39,392 nucleotides of DNA from Candidatus Omnitrophota bacterium (GTDB lineage: Bacteria; Omnitrophota; Gorgyraeia; Gorgyraeales; Gorgyraeaceae), in assembly GCA_026387235.1 (NCBI GenBank), contig JAPLMD010000045.1:1-39392 (forward strand), in the 5' to 3' direction. Positions 25,824 to 39,392 of this stretch are shown one piece after another (within the stretch, counting starts at the first letter, position 1; every line of letters starts with the position of its first letter). The notes below the pieces were generated by a model. That model was not told the DNA's origin, ran no database searches, and saw only the letters and a program-made list of their open reading frames with translations. Made by a program: the position numbers and the translations under genes.

Positions 25824-27830
25824 ATGGCAAAATCGCTTGTTATAGTAGAGTCGCCCGCAAAATCCAATACTATAAATAAAATACTCGGTAAAAATTTTAC
25901 CGTTACTTCTTCAATGGGCCATATAATGGATTTGCCTAAGTCAAAGATGGGCATAGACATAGAAAAGGACTTTACTCCTGAATACATAATGATACCTGGT
26001 AAGAAGAAGATAGTGGACACGTTGAAAAAAGCAGCAGCTGAAGCAGACGATATATTTTTGGCAACAGATCCTGACAGAGAAGGAGAGGCAATAAGTTGGC
26101 ATCTTGCAAATCTTCTAGGCAAGAAGAAAAAGATTCACAGGATCGCGTTCCATGAAATTACAAAGACTGCGATAGAAGCAGCTATTAATAAGCCCGGCAA
26201 TATAGATATGAACATGGTGGACGCTCAGCAGACAAGAAGGATTCTGGATAGGCTGGTGGGTTATAGCATCAGCCCGCTATTATGGAGAAAGGTTGGTAGA
26301 GGCCTTTCGGCAGGCAGGGTCCAGTCAGTTGCAGTGAGGCTTGTAGTGGACAGAGAGAATGAAATTCGTGTTTTTGTACCGGAAGAATACTGGGACATAG
26401 AGGCGGAGCTCAAAAAGAAGGACGTAGAAAATTCTAAATTTATTGCCAAGTTAGATAAGATAGAAGATAAAAAAATAGACCTTAAGAATCAAAGCAATTC
26501 TATGAGTCTGGTAGCTGAAATTGAAAAGGAAAAGTTTATAGTTGAGAAAGTTGAGAAAAAGGAAAAAAGAAAATACGCCCAGCCGCCTTTTATAACCTCC
26601 AAACTTCAGCAAGAGGCATTTTATAAACTCAGATTCCAGGCTGTTAAAACAATGAAGGTGGCGCAGCAATTATATGAAGGTTTGCCGATAGGGAGCGAGG
26701 GCAATGTAGGTCTTATAACTTACATGCGTACGGATGCCGTGAGAGTCTCAAAAGAATCGCAGGATTTCGCAATAAAATACATACTTGAAAAATATGGCGC
26801 TGAATTTGTGCCAAGCATGCCGAACGTATACAAAGCAAAGAAAAGCGCTCAGGAGGCGCATGAAGCAATAAGGCCTGCGCTGCCGCTGAGAGAGCCAAGC
26901 AGCATAAAGGAATTCCTCACGCTGGACCAGCATAAACTCTACACGTTGATATGGAATCGCTTTATATCCAGCCAGATGACGCCTGCTGTATTTAATGTGG
27001 TGAGCGTTGAGATAAAGGCGGGAAGATGTATTTTTAAAGCCAATGGTTCGCAAAAAGTATTCCAGGGTTTCAGCGTTGTTTATCAGGAAAATGAGGAAGA
27101 GAAAGAAGAAGAAAGATTGCTTCCTTTTTTAGAAGCAGGAGAAGTCTTGGACCTTCTAAAGCTGAATCCAAATCAGCACTTTACAAAGCCTCCTCCAAGA
27201 TATTCAGACGCGTCTCTTGTAAAGGCCCTTGAAGAAGATGGTATCGGAAGACCGAGCACGTACGCGCCTATCATTCAGACTATCATTGCCCGCAATTATG
27301 TAAAAAGAAAAGAAGGGTATTTCTGTCCTTCTGAACTGGGCATGGTGGTAACAGATCTTCTAATGAAAAGTTTTCCCAGGATTCTGGATATGGAATTTAC
27401 AGCCAAAATGGAAGAAGAGCTGGATGAGATAGAAGAAGGCAGAGAAAAGAGCGTAGAAGTTCTTAAAAGATTCTATACGCCTTTTGAAAAAGACGTGGAG
27501 CACGCGAAAGTAAATATGCGCAAGGTAAAAGGGGAAGCTGTAAAAACCTCAGAGATTTGCGAAAAATGCGGCAAGCCCATGGTTATAAAGTGGGGAAGGC
27601 TCGGAAGGTTTTTAAGCTGTTCCGATTTTCCTAACTGCAGGTTTGCTAAAGCCATACCTACGGGCGTGAAATGCCCTGAGCCTGACTGCGGCGGGATGCT
27701 CGTAGAGCGCCGCTCCAAAGGAGGCAGGCATTTTTACGGCTGTTCTAATTATCCAAAATGCCATCATATATCCCGCAGGCTTCCTTCCCAGAATAACGAA
27801 GATAGCGCGTTAGAGGGAGAAGATGCTTGA
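25824..27830 (+). CDS. topA: DNA topoisomerase I with C-terminal zinc ribbons
   Basis: LVIVESPAKSNTINKILG, TDPDREGEAISWHL, GLITYMRTD, CEKCGKPM...CSDFPNC, CPEPDCGG...CSNYPKC. Confidence 0.97.
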   Translation: MAKSLVIVESPAKSNTINKILGKNFTVTSSMGHIMDLPKSKMGIDIEKDFTPEYIMIPGKKKIVDTLKKAAAEADDIFLATDPDREGEAISWHLANLLGKKKKIHRIAFHEITKTAIEAAINKPGNIDMNMVDAQQTRRILDRLVGYSISPLLWRKVGRGLSAGRVQSVAVRLVVDRENEIRVFVPEEYWDIEAELKKKDVENSKFIAKLDKIEDKKIDLKNQSNSMSLVAEIEKEKFIVEKVEKKEKRKYAQPPFITSKLQQEAFYKLRFQAVKTMKVAQQLYEGLPIGSEGNVGLITYMRTDAVRVSKESQDFAIKYILEKYGAEFVPSMPNVYKAKKSAQEAHEAIRPALPLREPSSIKEFLTLDQHKLYTLIWNRFISSQMTPAVFNVVSVEIKAGRCIFKANGSQKVFQGFSVVYQENEEEKEEERLLPFLEAGEVLDLLKLNPNQHFTKPPPRYSDASLVKALEEDGIGRPSTYAPIIQTIIARNYVKRKEGYFCPSELGMVVTDLLMKSFPRILDMEFTAKMEEELDEIEEGREKSVEVLKRFYTPFEKDVEHAKVNMRKVKGEAVKTSEICEKCGKPMVIKWGRLGRFLSCSDFPNCRFAKAIPTGVKCPEPDCGGMLVERRSKGGRHFYGCSNYPKCHHISRRLPSQNNEDSALEGEDA

Positions 27831-28698
27831 TCGATATGTGCATAAATTCATCAATTATCTGCAGATTGAAAAAAACGCCTCGGATCATACCGTAACTAAC
27901 TATAAGATAGACCTCAGAGAATTCAGCGAATCAGTAAAAGATAAACCTATAGAGCAAATTACTCATCTGGACGTGAGACTTTTTCTAGCCAGGATGAAGG
28001 AGAAGAATTTTGCAAGGAGATCCGTAGCCAGAAAGATGGCTTGCCTCAGGAGTTTTTTTAAATTTCTTTACAGAGAAGGACTTATAAAAACCAATCCCAG
28101 CGTCAGCCTGTCAACGCCTAAGATAGAGAAGAAATTGCCTTTATTTTTAAACGTAGATGATGTTGCGAAACTCCTGGAATCCCCGGATTCTTCTGATGCT
28201 ATAGGCTTGCGCGACAGGGCTATTTTGGAGACGCTTTATTCGACAGGGATAAGAGTAAGTGAGCTTGCGGGCCTGGATAAAGAGGACATTGATTTTATAA
28301 GCGGGGTATTAAAGGTATACGGAAAAGGAAAAAAAGAAAGGCTCGCGCCTATAGGAGACAAGGCGTTGAGAGCTATAAGGGCTTATTTTGAAAAGATAGG
28401 AGTGAGCGATATAAATGAAAAGAAACCCGTATTTCTTAATAAAAGCAAAAGGCGCGTGAGCGACAGGGCTGTAAGAAGGATAGTTCATAAGTATATCCAT
28501 AAGACCAGCCTTAATGAGAATATTTCTCCTCACTCGTTAAGGCATTCTTTTGCCACTCATATGCTGGACAGGGGCGCGGATTTAAGATCAGTGCAGGAAC
28601 TTTTAGGCCATGCAAATCTTTCCACTACCCAGATATATACGCACGTAACTACTGAGAGATTGAAAGCAATCTACGATAAGGTTCACCCAAGGGCGTAA
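27823..28698 (+). CDS. Tyrosine recombinase XerC/XerD family
   Basis: LYSTGIRVSELAGL, SPHSLRHSFATHMLDRGADLRSVQELLGHANLSTTQIYTHV. Confidence 0.95.
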   Translation: MLDRYVHKFINYLQIEKNASDHTVTNYKIDLREFSESVKDKPIEQITHLDVRLFLARMKEKNFARRSVARKMACLRSFFKFLYREGLIKTNPSVSLSTPKIEKKLPLFLNVDDVAKLLESPDSSDAIGLRDRAILETLYSTGIRVSELAGLDKEDIDFISGVLKVYGKGKKERLAPIGDKALRAIRAYFEKIGVSDINEKKPVFLNKSKRRVSDRAVRRIVHKYIHKTSLNENISPHSLRHSFATHMLDRGADLRSVQELLGHANLSTTQIYTHVTTERLKAIYDKVHPRA

Positions 28699-35367: not shown

Positions 35368-35446
35368 GGTGGGTGTAGCTCAGCTTGGATAGAGCACTAG
35401 ACTGTGGCTCTAGGTGTCGCGGGTTCAAATCCCGTCATCCACCCCA
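35368..35446 (+). tRNA. tRNA-His (anticodon GTG), with G-1 and encoded CCA
   Basis: GGTGGGTGTAGCTCAGCTTGGATAGAGCACTAGACTGTGGCTCTAGGTGTCGCGGGTTCAAATCCCGTCATCCACCCCA cloverleaf. Confidence 0.95.
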
Positions 35447-35483
35447 GTATATCCTATCTCTATATGGCACAATGAGTTAGGAC

Positions 35484-35518
35484 AAATCCCCGACGGGGCA
35501 ACCTGTCGGGGATTTTTT
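35484..35518 (+). terminator. Intrinsic terminator after tRNA-His
   Basis: AAATCCCCGAC-N10-GTCGGGGATTTTTT, 11-bp perfect stem plus U-run. Confidence 0.9.
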
Positions 35519-35640
35519 ATCTGTCGATGTTCCTAGGACTTAGGGCATTATTTCCGTAGGAGATTTTTGAAATATTTCATAACAAGATCATCGTCGGGAA
35601 AGAGAGTAATTTTGCTAGAGAATTTTAAAGAAATAGGCCA

Positions 35641-35756
35641 ATTCCTCTCTTAGTTTATGGGCGCTAGTTTATGGCATATTCACGCAATAACGCGCTTATT
35701 TCTGCTGTTGATTCTGCCATAAACTAAAGGTGAGGAATACTAAAGAAGAGAGAGGA
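35641..35756. repeat. Foldback region with 12-bp inverted repeat
   Basis: TAGTTTATGGCA (35665-35676)/TGCCATAAACTA (35715-35726); extra copy TAGTTTATGG at 35651; outer CCTCTCT/AGAGAGG. Confidence 0.65.
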
Positions 35757-35771
35757 GTGTAAACCTCGCAA

Positions 35772-35811
35772 TTAACCAACAGATTTTATAGATAGCGCTT
35801 TCGTTGGTTAA
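35772..35811. promoter_or_regulatory. Inverted repeat 1 upstream of the nucleotidyltransferase operon
   Basis: TTAACCAAC-N22-GTTGGTTAA. Confidence 0.65.
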
Positions 35812-35819
35812 CTTATTTC

Positions 35820-35848
35820 TTGACATTTGTTACCTAACAAGGCATACT
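35820..35848 (+). promoter_or_regulatory. Sigma70-like promoter
   Basis: TTGACA-N17-CATACT, inside/adjacent to the inverted repeat at 35828-35871. Confidence 0.7.
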
Positions 35849-35871
35849 ATTTAGTAGTATGTTAGGTAACA
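35828..35871. promoter_or_regulatory. Inverted repeat 2, probable operator
   Basis: TGTTACCTAAC-N22-GTTAGGTAACA, 11-bp perfect arms, ends at the RBS AGGAGG. Confidence 0.75.
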
Positions 35872-35883
35872 GGAGGAGTTAAA

Positions 35884-36201
35884 ATGGGTGTGATAAAAGG
35901 CGTATTGAAAGAAGAGCTTGAAAATTCCTTGCGCATGAAAAAGGAATATGAAAGGGCATTAAATGAATTGCCCAAAGGATGTATTGCTGAAAAAAAGATA
36001 AGAGGGCATAGTTATTGTTATTTAGCGCAGCGAGTTGGCAAAAAGGTAAAATATATCTATAAAGGAAAAATTTCAGAAGCTGAAAGAAATAAATATCAGG
36101 AAGCAAAAGTCTTAAGGGCTAAATATAGAAAATTACTGTCACGGGTTAAAAAGCAGGTCAAGTTTTTAAAAGGGACTCTTCGTGGAAAAGAATCAATATA
36201 A
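35884..36201 (+). CDS. Small basic protein, DUF6788-like, first gene of a two-gene operon
   Basis: 105 aa, RBS AGGAGG, GHSYCYLAQRVGKKVKYIYKGKIS core followed by basic helix. Confidence 0.75.
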   Translation: MGVIKGVLKEELENSLRMKKEYERALNELPKGCIAEKKIRGHSYCYLAQRVGKKVKYIYKGKISEAERNKYQEAKVLRAKYRKLLSRVKKQVKFLKGTLRGKESI

Positions 36202-36871
36202 ATTGTGCTTTGAGGTCTTAAGGCGTTTTAATAAAGCGGGTATTCTGGATGGCCTTATTTTAATAGGCAGCTGGTGCCTTTATTTTTATAAAGGCTATTT
36301 TGAAAATATTTCATATATAGATATAGCTACTATTAAAACAAGAGATATAGATTTTCTTGTGCCGATTCCCGCGAGAATCAAAAAAGAAGTGGATATACCG
36401 AAATTACTAGAAGACCTTGGTTTTGTAATAGAATTTAAAGGCAGTAAGGGCTATATAAAGCTGGATCATCCTGATCTTATAGTAGAGTTTTTAGTTCCGG
36501 AAAAAGGCAGAGGAAGCGACAAGCCATATAAACTTCCACAATTAGGTATGAATGCCACGCCTTTAAGATTTTTGAGTTTCTTGACAGATAATGTTATTCG
36601 CGTAAAAGTAGAAGACTTCTACATTAATGTGCCTCATCCTGCAAATTTTGCCTTGCATAAATTAATAATATTTAGTAGAAGGTCAAAAGAGGATAAAGCT
36701 TTAAAAGATAAGAATACGGCCATAGAAATTCTCAAAGCCCTTTTTAATAAGGAAGAAGTGCGAATAGTAAAATCTATATTTAACTCTATGCCTCAGAAAT
36801 GGCAGAAAAAGATTCTGGATAATCTTAAATCCATAGAGGAACCAGAAATAGCTAAAATTTTGATTGAATAG
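36182..36871 (+). CDS. Predicted nucleotidyltransferase (NTP_transf_8-like)
   Basis: LILIGSWCLYFYKGYF and TRDIDFLVP (G-S plus DxD pattern); GTG start overlaps upstream ORF by 20 nt. Confidence 0.75.
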   Translation: MEKNQYKLCFEVLRRFNKAGILDGLILIGSWCLYFYKGYFENISYIDIATIKTRDIDFLVPIPARIKKEVDIPKLLEDLGFVIEFKGSKGYIKLDHPDLIVEFLVPEKGRGSDKPYKLPQLGMNATPLRFLSFLTDNVIRVKVEDFYINVPHPANFALHKLIIFSRRSKEDKALKDKNTAIEILKALFNKEEVRIVKSIFNSMPQKWQKKILDNLKSIEEPEIAKILIE

Positions 36872-36933
36872 GGCATAGGATTAAGTATAATTAAGTTTAA
36901 AGCACTAAAAAAGGAAGAGGGGTTAAGTTTACA

Positions 36934-36960
36934 GTTCAAATCTCTTCAAGGACCCCAGTA
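36934..36960 (+). repeat. Degenerate copy of the tRNA-His 3' end, candidate attachment-site remnant
   Basis: GTTCAAATCTCTTCAAGGACCCCAGTA vs GTTCAAATCCCGTCATCCACCCCAGTA at 35423-35449, 22/27 identical. Confidence 0.5.
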
Positions 36961-36991
36961 ATATCGCTCTCCTCGTATAATGGGAGAGTTT

Positions 36992-37029
36992 AAAGGCTAT
37001 TGATCGGATATGGTCAATAGCCTTTTTGT
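36992..37029 (+). terminator. Intrinsic terminator
   Basis: AAAGGCTATTGA-N10-TCAATAGCCTTTTTGTTT, 12-bp perfect stem. Confidence 0.85.
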
Positions 37030-37213
37030 TTACCTGTTTATAGAGAGTGTTTTTATGATGAGCCCTTTCTGGGCAGCCTTAGCGGAATAACTAAAGCGGC
37101 CACAGTCTATCCGCGTTCTATCCCCCAAAGGGGTATGGGTGCGGTTTAAGGACGCGCAGTTTAAAATCTTCCTACACGACACAATAAAAACCCACGATTA
37201 TACCTCGGTACAA

Positions 37214-37448: not shown

Positions 37449-37613
37449 ATGTTAGGTTGGGCTGCTACATTTTTCGTTATTGCCATTGTTGCGGCACTGT
37501 TGGGGTTTACGGGGATCGCCGGTTCGGCCATAGAGATCGCTAAGATTTTGTTTTTCATATTTTTGATATTATCGATCGTCATTTTTATTTTTGGAAAAAG
37601 AAGGTCCGTATAA
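37449..37613 (+). CDS. DUF1328/YtjA-type (UPF0391) small membrane protein
   Basis: [62 protein letters not shown]; not in ORF track. Confidence 0.88.
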
Positions 37614-37847
37614 ATCTTTCACAAAAGCCGAAACAGGCACTGTTTGTAAACAATGATTAACGCAACAATTATAAAACACAATGAAGAAAGGTGTTTTATG
37701 ATTATTGAAGGTGGTTTTTGTTGTATTATTTATTTGTTGCGGCCTCGATCGTGAGCCAGCATTTTCGAACGAAACAGACTGCCGAAAAAATCCTCGAATA
37801 CTTCATATCTCTTCGATCAGGCAAATCCTCAATACGTTTCAAAGCGA

Positions 37848-37876
37848 CCGGTGCAAAAAATATAACCAGTTTTTAA
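37848..37876. repeat. ~30-bp motif copy A
   Basis: CCGGTGCAAAAAATATAACCAGTTTTTAA. Confidence 0.7.
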
Positions 37877-38066
37877 AAGATAGCACTTTGGTTTCTGCGG
37901 CTAAAAGCTATATTTATATTTTTTATATAATCAAAACCCGGATTGCTATGGTTTTTAAGATAGAATTATCTCTTGCCCGTGCAAAAATCTAAACCCTTAA
38001 TCCAATAATAATGTCTCGTCACCCCGCTTGACAGCGAAATTTATTGGGGTATATACCATGGTACAA

Positions 38067-38095
38067 TTGATTTATTTTTCTTCTTCCACTAAAAT
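38067..38095 (+). promoter_or_regulatory. Promoter copy 2, within repeated box GGTACAATTGATTT
   Basis: TTGATT-N17-TAAAAT, 8 nt before ATG 38104. Confidence 0.65.
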
Positions 38096-38103
38096 AATAA
38101 CAT

Positions 38104-38532
38104 ATGGAATATTTCTCAATGGTCACAAAATGGCTTTCCAACAAAGCTGCGCAACCATTCACGTGTTTCTTAGCATTTTTTATTATTTTGGTTTGGGGTC
38201 TATTTGGGCTGCCGCTTCATTTCAATGAAACATGGCAACTCATCATCAGTACTCTTGCGGCGATTATTTCTATCATCATGCTTTTTATCATTCAAAACAG
38301 CCAAAATCGTCACACCATTGCGATTCAGCTTAAACTTGACGAAATCATTCGTGCTACCAAAGGCGCTCATAACGAAATGATGGACATTGAAAAGCTCACA
38401 GATGAGGATTTGGCTAGGATTCAGAAAAAGTATGGCTTATTGGCTGAGAAAACCAAAGAAGACTTGAAAAAAGGTAAGCTCGACACTCACACGCACGACA
38501 TTAGCAAAATAATTATCGAAGAAAAAAGGTAG
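38104..38532 (+). CDS. Low-affinity iron permease family protein
   Basis: Two TM segments then FIIQNSQNRHTIAIQLKLDEIIRATKGAHNEMMDIE; start may be 38104 or 38119. Confidence 0.85.
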   Translation: MEYFSMVTKWLSNKAAQPFTCFLAFFIILVWGLFGLPLHFNETWQLIISTLAAIISIIMLFIIQNSQNRHTIAIQLKLDEIIRATKGAHNEMMDIEKLTDEDLARIQKKYGLLAEKTKEDLKKGKLDTHTHDISKIIIEEKR

Positions 38533-38698
38533 CTGCTTGCCACCTGTTATATTAACATTAAAATTGGGACAGCGCCCATTTTGTTTTTACCACCCCAGTA
38601 ATCCGCTATAAATTCTCTCTAAATCCAAAATATTCTTGATATATAAAAGTATTGAGTCTATAATTGATCTATGTAAATTAAAGAGGTTTCCTCTTGAA

Positions 38699-38725
38699 CC
38701 TGGTGCAAAAAATTTCCGGTTTTCA
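38699..38725. repeat. ~30-bp motif copy B (diverged)
   Basis: CCTGGTGCAAAAAATTTCCGGTTTTCA. Confidence 0.5.
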
Positions 38726-38777: not shown

Positions 38778-39029
38778 ATGTTATATACACTAATGAAAAA
38801 TCTAACAGGGATATTTCTTATGTTAATATTTTTGAGCGGCTGTGTGGTTACTGCATCTTCCGGCTCACGGACCGAGTATGAAGATAAAATGAAAAAAATT
38901 GAAAAAGACTACAGGGAGATGAAAATAACTAAGGATGAGTATATCCAGCTCAAGAATCAAGCTAGTCAGCAGGGAAGTGTTGGGCAGAAAAGTGACTCAA
39001 TGAGTTCTGATCAAAGCCATCCTCAGTAA
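38778..39029 (+). CDS. Small putative lipoprotein
   Basis: Signal peptide with lipobox LSGC, charged coiled body; RBS AAGGAGG. Confidence 0.75.
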   Translation: MLYTLMKNLTGIFLMLIFLSGCVVTASSGSRTEYEDKMKKIEKDYREMKITKDEYIQLKNQASQQGSVGQKSDSMSSDQSHPQ

Positions 39030-39127: not shown

Positions 39128-39156
39128 CCGGTGCAAAAAATATCACCGGTTTTTAA
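39128..39156. repeat. ~30-bp motif copy C; forms hairpin CCGGTG-N10-CACCGG-TTTTT
   Basis: CCGGTGCAAAAAATATCACCGGTTTTTAA. Confidence 0.7.
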
Positions 39157-39309: not shown

Positions 39310-39392
39310 ATGACCGATAAAAAGCCGACGATTCTCTGTGTTGACGACGAACCGAAGAACCTCGAACTTCTCGAGGCGCTGCTCGTCCCGCG
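39310..39392 (+). CDS. Response regulator receiver domain, truncated by window end
   Basis: MTDKKPTILCVDDEPKNLELLEALLVP with GGAG RBS. Confidence 0.8.
   Translation, partial: MTDKKPTILCVDDEPKNLELLEALLVP

Follow-up and report, generated by a model that had tools for sequence, protein, structure and literature searches.

A Probable tRNA-His-anchored Cassette Array in Candidatus Omnitrophota and a Candidate Large Serine Recombinase/DUF2924 System

Introduction

The question raised by the locus described here is how a two-gene operon came to lie between the 3' end of a tRNA-His gene and an imperfect copy of that end, near the right-hand limit of a 39,392-nt stretch of DNA from Candidatus Omnitrophota (the window). 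Duplication of a tRNA 3' end is the footprint of tRNA-targeted genomic islands of the Islander/TIGER type, for which tyrosine integrases are usual, and a sequence-only reading of the window took the segment for a tRNA-anchored cargo without a visible integrase, either a remnant or a mobilized unit, and the degenerate tRNA end for a footprint of site-specific integration. In the analysis reported here the insertion and the small size of the cargo stood, but the segment does not appear as a lone remnant: tRNA-His is probably the anchor of an array of cassettes, of which positions 35447-36960 form the first. As a whole, the evidence favors a model in which a family of large serine recombinases paired with DUF2924 proteins joins tRNA ends to DNA that bears a common end module.

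Results

The Repeat and the Array in the Window

The anchor tRNA gene and the other features of the array are listed in Table I; the gene order Pro-Arg-DUF748-His is also present in members of the family. The recurrence of the last 24 nt of tRNA-His plus 3 nt, on which the sequence-only reading was founded, was confirmed, and the repeat was also found independently. The 27-mer at 35423-35449 has its sole near copy within the window at 36934-36960 (22 of 27 positions, the next best being 17/27), and this similarity is far above chance, since when the 3.9 kb of downstream DNA was resampled 300 times under a first-order Markov model the best value was 18/27, and 100 such resamplings of the whole window gave 19/27 at best. 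The repeat belongs to a longer conserved boundary, which runs on past 36960 and recurs in many related genomes; the degenerate tRNA end, previously read as an integration footprint, is an instance of this recurrent boundary type.

At the boundary, a core that resembles the tRNA 3' end, CACCCCAGTA, leads into a conserved left-end module. The module opens with a short hairpin; a second hairpin, of the terminator type and with a T run, comes next, then a conserved box, and finally TAGTTTATGG in direct and inverted copies. The arms of the TAGTTTATGG repeats vary among lineages yet remain complementary; a search of viral contigs for the exact TAGTTTATGGC...GCCATAAACTA dyad found none. In genome G016 a boundary with another upstream gene, helicase-like on inspection by eye, is preceded by the same right-end segment as that of cassette 1.

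The array holds at least two cassettes and probably three, the core of the probable third boundary lying at 38590-38602. Two copies of the 11-mer ACCCCAGTAAT are present in the 1.5-Mb genome, both within the window (36952 and 38592). The segment is AT-rich, with 34.6% GC compared with 41.4% in positions 1-35000. No clean two-sided empty site is obtainable, as contig C18 terminates within the array at 39392. In cassettes 2 and 3, similar stretches of the form GGTGCAAAAAAT...CCGGTTTTT lie between the small genes, at 37848-37884, 38699-38725, and 39129-39155, at least one of which is a short stem-loop, and GGTACAATTGATTT is found at ~37209 and ~38070, upstream of the DUF1328 gene and the iron permease gene, where it is possibly a shared promoter.

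Table I. Features of the tRNA-His locus and its array (window coordinates)
Feature	Position	Strand	Basis or remark
tRNA-His (GTG), array anchor	35369..35446	+	ARAGORN; Rfam tRNA, 61.5 bits
First attachment-type core: tRNA-His T-arm, acceptor 3' strand, and GTA	35423..35449	+	Repeat search
Left-end module, ~294 nt, common to cassettes and recombinase-bearing elements	35447..35740	+	Comparison with relatives
Terminator-type hairpin within the module, then T run	35484..35515	+	Inverted repeat and DNA fold
TAGTTTATGG direct repeats (35651, 35665) and inverted copy (ends 35726)	35651..35726	+	Repeat search, lineage comparison
Promoter-like TTGACA (35820); palindrome GTTACCTAACA (35829-35839) / TGTTAGGTAAC (35860-35870)	35820..35870	+	Read from sequence
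Small basic protein, 105 aa, putative antitoxin/partner	35884..36201	+	No Pfam family
NTP_transf_8 nucleotidyltransferase, 229 aa, GTG start, putative toxin/effector	36182..36871	+	PF12281, E 8e-23
Right-end segment of cassette 1 (D type)	36872..36951	+	Also at boundaries with a different upstream gene
Second attachment-type core, contains ACCCCAGTA, then AT	36934..36960	+	22/27 to tRNA-His 3' end
Second left-end module, truncated: two hairpins including the terminator only	36961..37040	+	Fold, module comparison
Cassette 2 cargo (probable): DUF1328 membrane protein (37449-37613), low-affinity iron permease (38104-38532)	37449..38532	+	Pfam
Third boundary (probable): CCACCCCAGTAAT, then decayed Y-type right-end segment	38590..38700	+	Sequence comparison
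Small lipoprotein	38778..39029	+	77% identity to a lipoprotein from the array at tRNA-Gln in congener G004

The Cargo Operon of Cassette 1

The cargo is as the sequence-only reading described it, a two-gene operon for a small basic protein and a nucleotidyltransferase, the gene for the latter overlapping the one that precedes it. In the predicted structure of the small protein a long helix is followed by a three-stranded sheet and a second long helix. Residues G29, S30, D55, D57, and E102 of the nucleotidyltransferase are invariant across 13 homologues, and the protein has some match in 62 of the 292 genomes of the class. Its model (pLDDT 88.5) resembles ANT(2'')-Ia and MenT1, with low TM-scores of 0.38-0.52 (by query length). 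Neither cargo protein has a match in PADLOC or PHROGs.

The operon is similar to the MenAT/AbiE toxin-antitoxin systems in consisting of two overlapping genes and in the likeness of the modelled enzyme to MenT1 and ANT(2'')-Ia, and it shares with them a nucleotidyltransferase fold, as modelled, together with a conserved GS...DxD and a third acidic residue. It differs from them in that the enzyme belongs to the NTP_transf_8 family, that its partner has no Pfam family, and that the TM-scores are low. The palindrome that overlaps the promoter-like region is a possible autoregulatory operator of the operon; the segment upstream of the operon is conserved in relatives whose operon sits elsewhere. 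The likeliest reading is a predicted autoregulated operon of the toxin-antitoxin type, and the cargo most likely has a stress or defence function in which the small basic protein would control or neutralise the nucleotidyltransferase.

Related operons are found in other settings. The homologue in G004 is 94% identical in nucleotide sequence but lies on another contig, without the module; in G037, which belongs to another family, a related operon behind tRNA-His ends in a perfect 24-nt copy of the tRNA end of the window. The cassette of G008 (L025, 555-1536) is mosaic in appearance, with a nucleotidyltransferase 94% identical to that of the window and a small gene nearer to that of G037, which suggests an exchange of partners.

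The Module in Related Genomes

The window sequence was used to search 79 related genomes, all of which are draft assemblies that break at such repeats; the sequences all come from one class, and shared ancestry adds to their similarity. In congeners G001, G004, and G007 the homology runs through the upstream flank and stops precisely at the tRNA-His 3' end, and the left-end module at this tRNA is present in the source genome (G000), G008, and G010 and absent from G001, G004, G005, and G007. The congeners are thus polymorphic at the tRNA end, as the sequence-only reading expected of an insertion there.

The fetched loci contain 64 module matches, 35 of which are not directly 3' of a tRNA, and a core of the CCCCA[G/A]T type directly precedes 25 of these 35. 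In one locus of G164 (L107) four modules stand in a row, the first at tRNA-His and the others at +2.75, +6.6, and +10.9 kb, and two or more modules are also present in L129, L098, L028, and L036. The cargo of the arrays in relatives includes MNT/HEPN pairs (PADLOC PDC-M05), an RmrA-like protein with a PemK/MazF toxin, and a ZnuA-type metal-transport protein. An array of the same design follows tRNA-Gln in G004, with an internal boundary that has a Gln-type end, GCAGCCACAGTAATC, and a second, similar copy of the module; farther along, it carries the lipoprotein that is 77% identical to the one in the window. This internal boundary surfaced solely through the module and not through matching of tRNA ends: when right ends were sought by the best tRNA-end match downstream of recombinase loci at other tRNAs, only the window and L107 were distinct. 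A perfect 26-nt repeat at a tRNA-Ser locus in L127 was rejected as an island end, as it coincides with a second tRNA-Ser(GCT) gene. In L032 (G012) and L060 (G015), both from members of the family, the tRNA-His is of a divergent, 74-nt type, and its place beside tRNA-Arg and tRNA-Pro is kept.

Since the module has a terminator-type hairpin directly 3' of the tRNA, it might be supposed that hairpin and terminator are simply the native end of the tRNA-His transcript and that the repeat at 36934-36960 is a chance or duplicated copy. However, 27 of the 46 tRNA-His genes inspected, those of congeners included, have no module match (a few of the 27 are at contig ends, and the loci were picked by homology, such that the fraction is not a population frequency), the module is also found 3' of tRNA-Glu, -Asp, -Asn, -Gln, and -Leu at recombinase sites, and unrelated cargo follows its internal copies. 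The occurrence at other tRNAs and the module-less tRNA-His genes largely refute the native-trailer explanation, which we regard as very improbable.

A Candidate Recombinase

No dedicated integrase was found in the window with Pfam, in agreement with the earlier statement that none is visible in the segment. The source genome has only two PF00589 matches, both strong and Xer-like, and every relative has matches of this size and kind; one of the two is the XerC-like gene at 27823-28698 of the window. The likely enzyme is a large serine recombinase rather than a tyrosine integrase, which a tRNA footprint would lead one to expect. In several relatives the gene for such a recombinase (Resolvase, Recombinase, and Zn_ribbon_recom domains) and a DUF2924 gene adjoin the boundary and point at the tRNA. 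DUF2924 is above the cut-off in 35 of the 292 genomes of the class, including the source genome, in which the recombinase and DUF2924 genes are located on contig C34 at tRNA-Glu, behind gyrA-like and gyrB-like genes (named by eye). This recombinase is at tRNA-Glu and not at tRNA-His, and the assembly contains no His-type recombinase. The tRNA-Glu island (G000:C34, L121:7833-12907) is followed by a gene for a DUF4143 ATPase and by an apparent rpoN gene that is split between two reading frames.

Among the 28 recombinase genes in the fetched loci, 18 have a tRNA whose 3' end faces them within 900 nt, mostly at 289-348 nt, and in 17 of these 18 cases the module lies between the two genes; the remaining 10 have no facing tRNA within this distance, several of them being at contig ends or inside arrays. 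The facing tRNAs are those for His, Glu, Gln, Asp, Asn, Ser, Leu, and Arg. A profile was built from the boundaries of recombinase-less loci with the tRNA letters excluded; its training set included six tRNA-His trailers without the module, which add noise. It matched in the gaps between tRNA and recombinase at the source genome's own tRNA-Glu (E 6e-14) and at tRNA-Asp (2e-13), -Asn (6e-10), -Leu (5e-8), and -Gln (5e-7), whereas the best match in the control, the reversed loci, had E = 2.

Outside Omnitrophota, the relatives of the recombinase mostly have no facing tRNA, and the association with tRNA ends is therefore not extended to them; in L182, L187, L189, L192, L210, and L214 the arrangement is another one, with a tRNA-Asn often ~1.2 kb or more upstream of the start of the recombinase gene. 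The tRNA-His end may also be used by a second type of element: in G007 (L041) a different serine recombinase (429 aa, cut by the contig end) follows tRNA-His, the same DNA is found directly after tRNA-His in G004 (L024), and in G190 (L104) a distantly related recombinase overlaps the tRNA-His region.

The length and similarity of the modules, two copies of which can be aligned in G004, would also fit a process in which the 290-nt module is a landing pad for RecA-type homologous exchange and the serine recombinase merely founded the locus, and mosaic cassettes such as that of G008, which joins a nucleotidyltransferase of the type in the source genome to a small gene of the G037 type, are consistent with this. 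Homologous exchange would, however, leave unexplained both the internal cores that match the tRNA at the head of the array, be it of the His or the Gln type, and the near-constant distance between recombinase and tRNA, and we consider it distinctly improbable.

Discussion

The sequences show directly a repeated tRNA end, a conserved module that recurs in arrays with different cargo, polymorphism within the genus, and copies of the module separating recombinase genes from tRNA genes. Together these features point to site-specific accretion of small units at tRNA ends. In the proposed mechanism, a unit would begin with a left-end module of ~290 nt, carry one to a few cargo genes, and close on a copy of the last bases of the tRNA (CACCCCAGTA), with the next unit starting at the tRNA-like right end of the preceding one. 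A large serine recombinase paired with DUF2924 would join the 3' end of the tRNA, by recombination, to the end that matches it on an incoming element, and the tRNA would remain intact and gain the terminator carried by the module. Units that lack a recombinase, including cassette 1, would be inserted, excised, or accreted in trans. We infer that these sites are substrates of the recombinase, that cassettes can move singly, and that DUF2924 has an auxiliary role. It should be recognized that, because the recombinase of the source genome is located at tRNA-Glu rather than tRNA-His, the enzyme serving the array in the window would be absent, lost, or unassembled. Cassette 1 may also be old or immobile, in view of a second core that matches at 22/27, a truncated second module, and a third boundary recognized from a short match; and, because the near-identical operon of G004 has no boundary elements, the operon can also move by another route.

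The degenerate repeats and truncated second module of the window are what would be expected if successive serine-recombinase islands or prophages had been stacked at one tRNA-His end and had decayed, leaving cargo between old att sites and single cassettes that are immobile today. Accretion of this type, as cis-mobilizable elements of the CIME kind, is documented in other bacteria (PMC5704250), and some recombinase-bearing elements are indeed larger, those in G164 and G202 having a methylase with phage relatives and terminase-type genes nearby. The recombinase-bearing locus L116 (G164:C26:103000-122999) also contains type III restriction-modification-like genes, a second methylase, and a terminase-like gene. 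Against such decay, many units have a complete module straight after the core, short, gene-sized cargo, and no visible remnants of recombinase or phage genes, and the cores are well kept in most arrays. Stacked remnants are, on balance, an unlikely explanation, although one that carries appreciable weight, and accretion of cassettes by the serine recombinase remains the preferred reading.

Integrons, the textbook single-gene cassette arrays, are based on a tyrosine recombinase; its gene lies by the first site, the cassettes are small, with one to a few genes and a repeated boundary site, and toxin-antitoxin cargo is common. The arrays described here are similar in having tandem cassettes with a repeated site, at several loci with at least two modules, at which recombination would likewise occur. 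They differ in that an IntI-type tyrosine recombinase is absent, the only PF00589 matches in the source genome being the two Xer-like ones, that the candidate enzyme is of the serine family and the anchor is a tRNA gene, and that the boundary core is tRNA-like, with no attC recognisable by eye. It is conceivable, although we would hold it only tentatively, that they represent a serine-recombinase counterpart of the integron across Omnitrophota, in which an enzyme partnered by DUF2924 uses the 3' end of a tRNA as its primary site, and captures and shuffles small cassettes with boundary cores that copy this end, the tRNA gene employed differing among lineages.

The SCC elements and the enterococcal cassette chromosome use Ccr large serine recombinases, insert at the 3' end of rlmH, and have very variable cargo, often including restriction-modification systems (PMC6222049). 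The present arrays share with them the use of a conserved gene's 3' end for insertion, variable cargo, and a large serine recombinase associated with the element type, which here is found in relatives and at the tRNA-Glu of the source genome, outside the window. In contrast to SCC, the anchors are tRNA genes of several isotypes rather than rlmH, a single recombinase with a DUF2924 partner occurs together with many small recombinase-less units, and there is a conserved end module of ~290 nt with a terminator and an inverted repeat.

CIMEs are recombinase-less units bounded by att-type sites that can stand in tandem at the 3' end of a gene (PMC5704250). Cassette 1 likewise has att-type flanks and neither recombinase nor transfer genes, but the units described here are gene-sized and share a common end module; no conjugation genes were noticed near these cassettes on incidental reading. 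The IMEs listed at tRNA ends in the same review use tyrosine integrases. In tRNA-targeted genomic islands and tycheposons, tRNA genes are integration sites at which the gene is reconstituted (PMC12884075). Unlike tycheposons and islands of the Islander/TIGER type, the present arrays have no tyrosine integrase near the tRNA end but, in relatives, a serine recombinase beside it, and several units are gathered on one tRNA. On defining features, the cassettes would fall outside each of the named families save the CIMEs, and membership of that family in the strict sense hinges on mobility. In its workings the accretion resembles that of SCC and CIMEs or of integrons, but the array is neither an SCC, for which the anchor is wrong, nor an integron, as there is no IntI. 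None of the full texts searched describes arrays of this kind; most subscription journals and bioRxiv were beyond reach, and an earlier description is possible.

Serine-recombinase IMEs have been described as disrupting dispensable genes (PMC5704250), whereas the recombinases considered here appear to use tRNA 3' ends and yet to spare the tRNA. If the proposed mechanism is correct, it would represent a second solution, beside integrons, for building arrays of gene-sized cassettes, one based on a serine recombinase and found in a little-known phylum with small genomes, and it would help to explain how defence and toxin-antitoxin genes are traded among these genomes.
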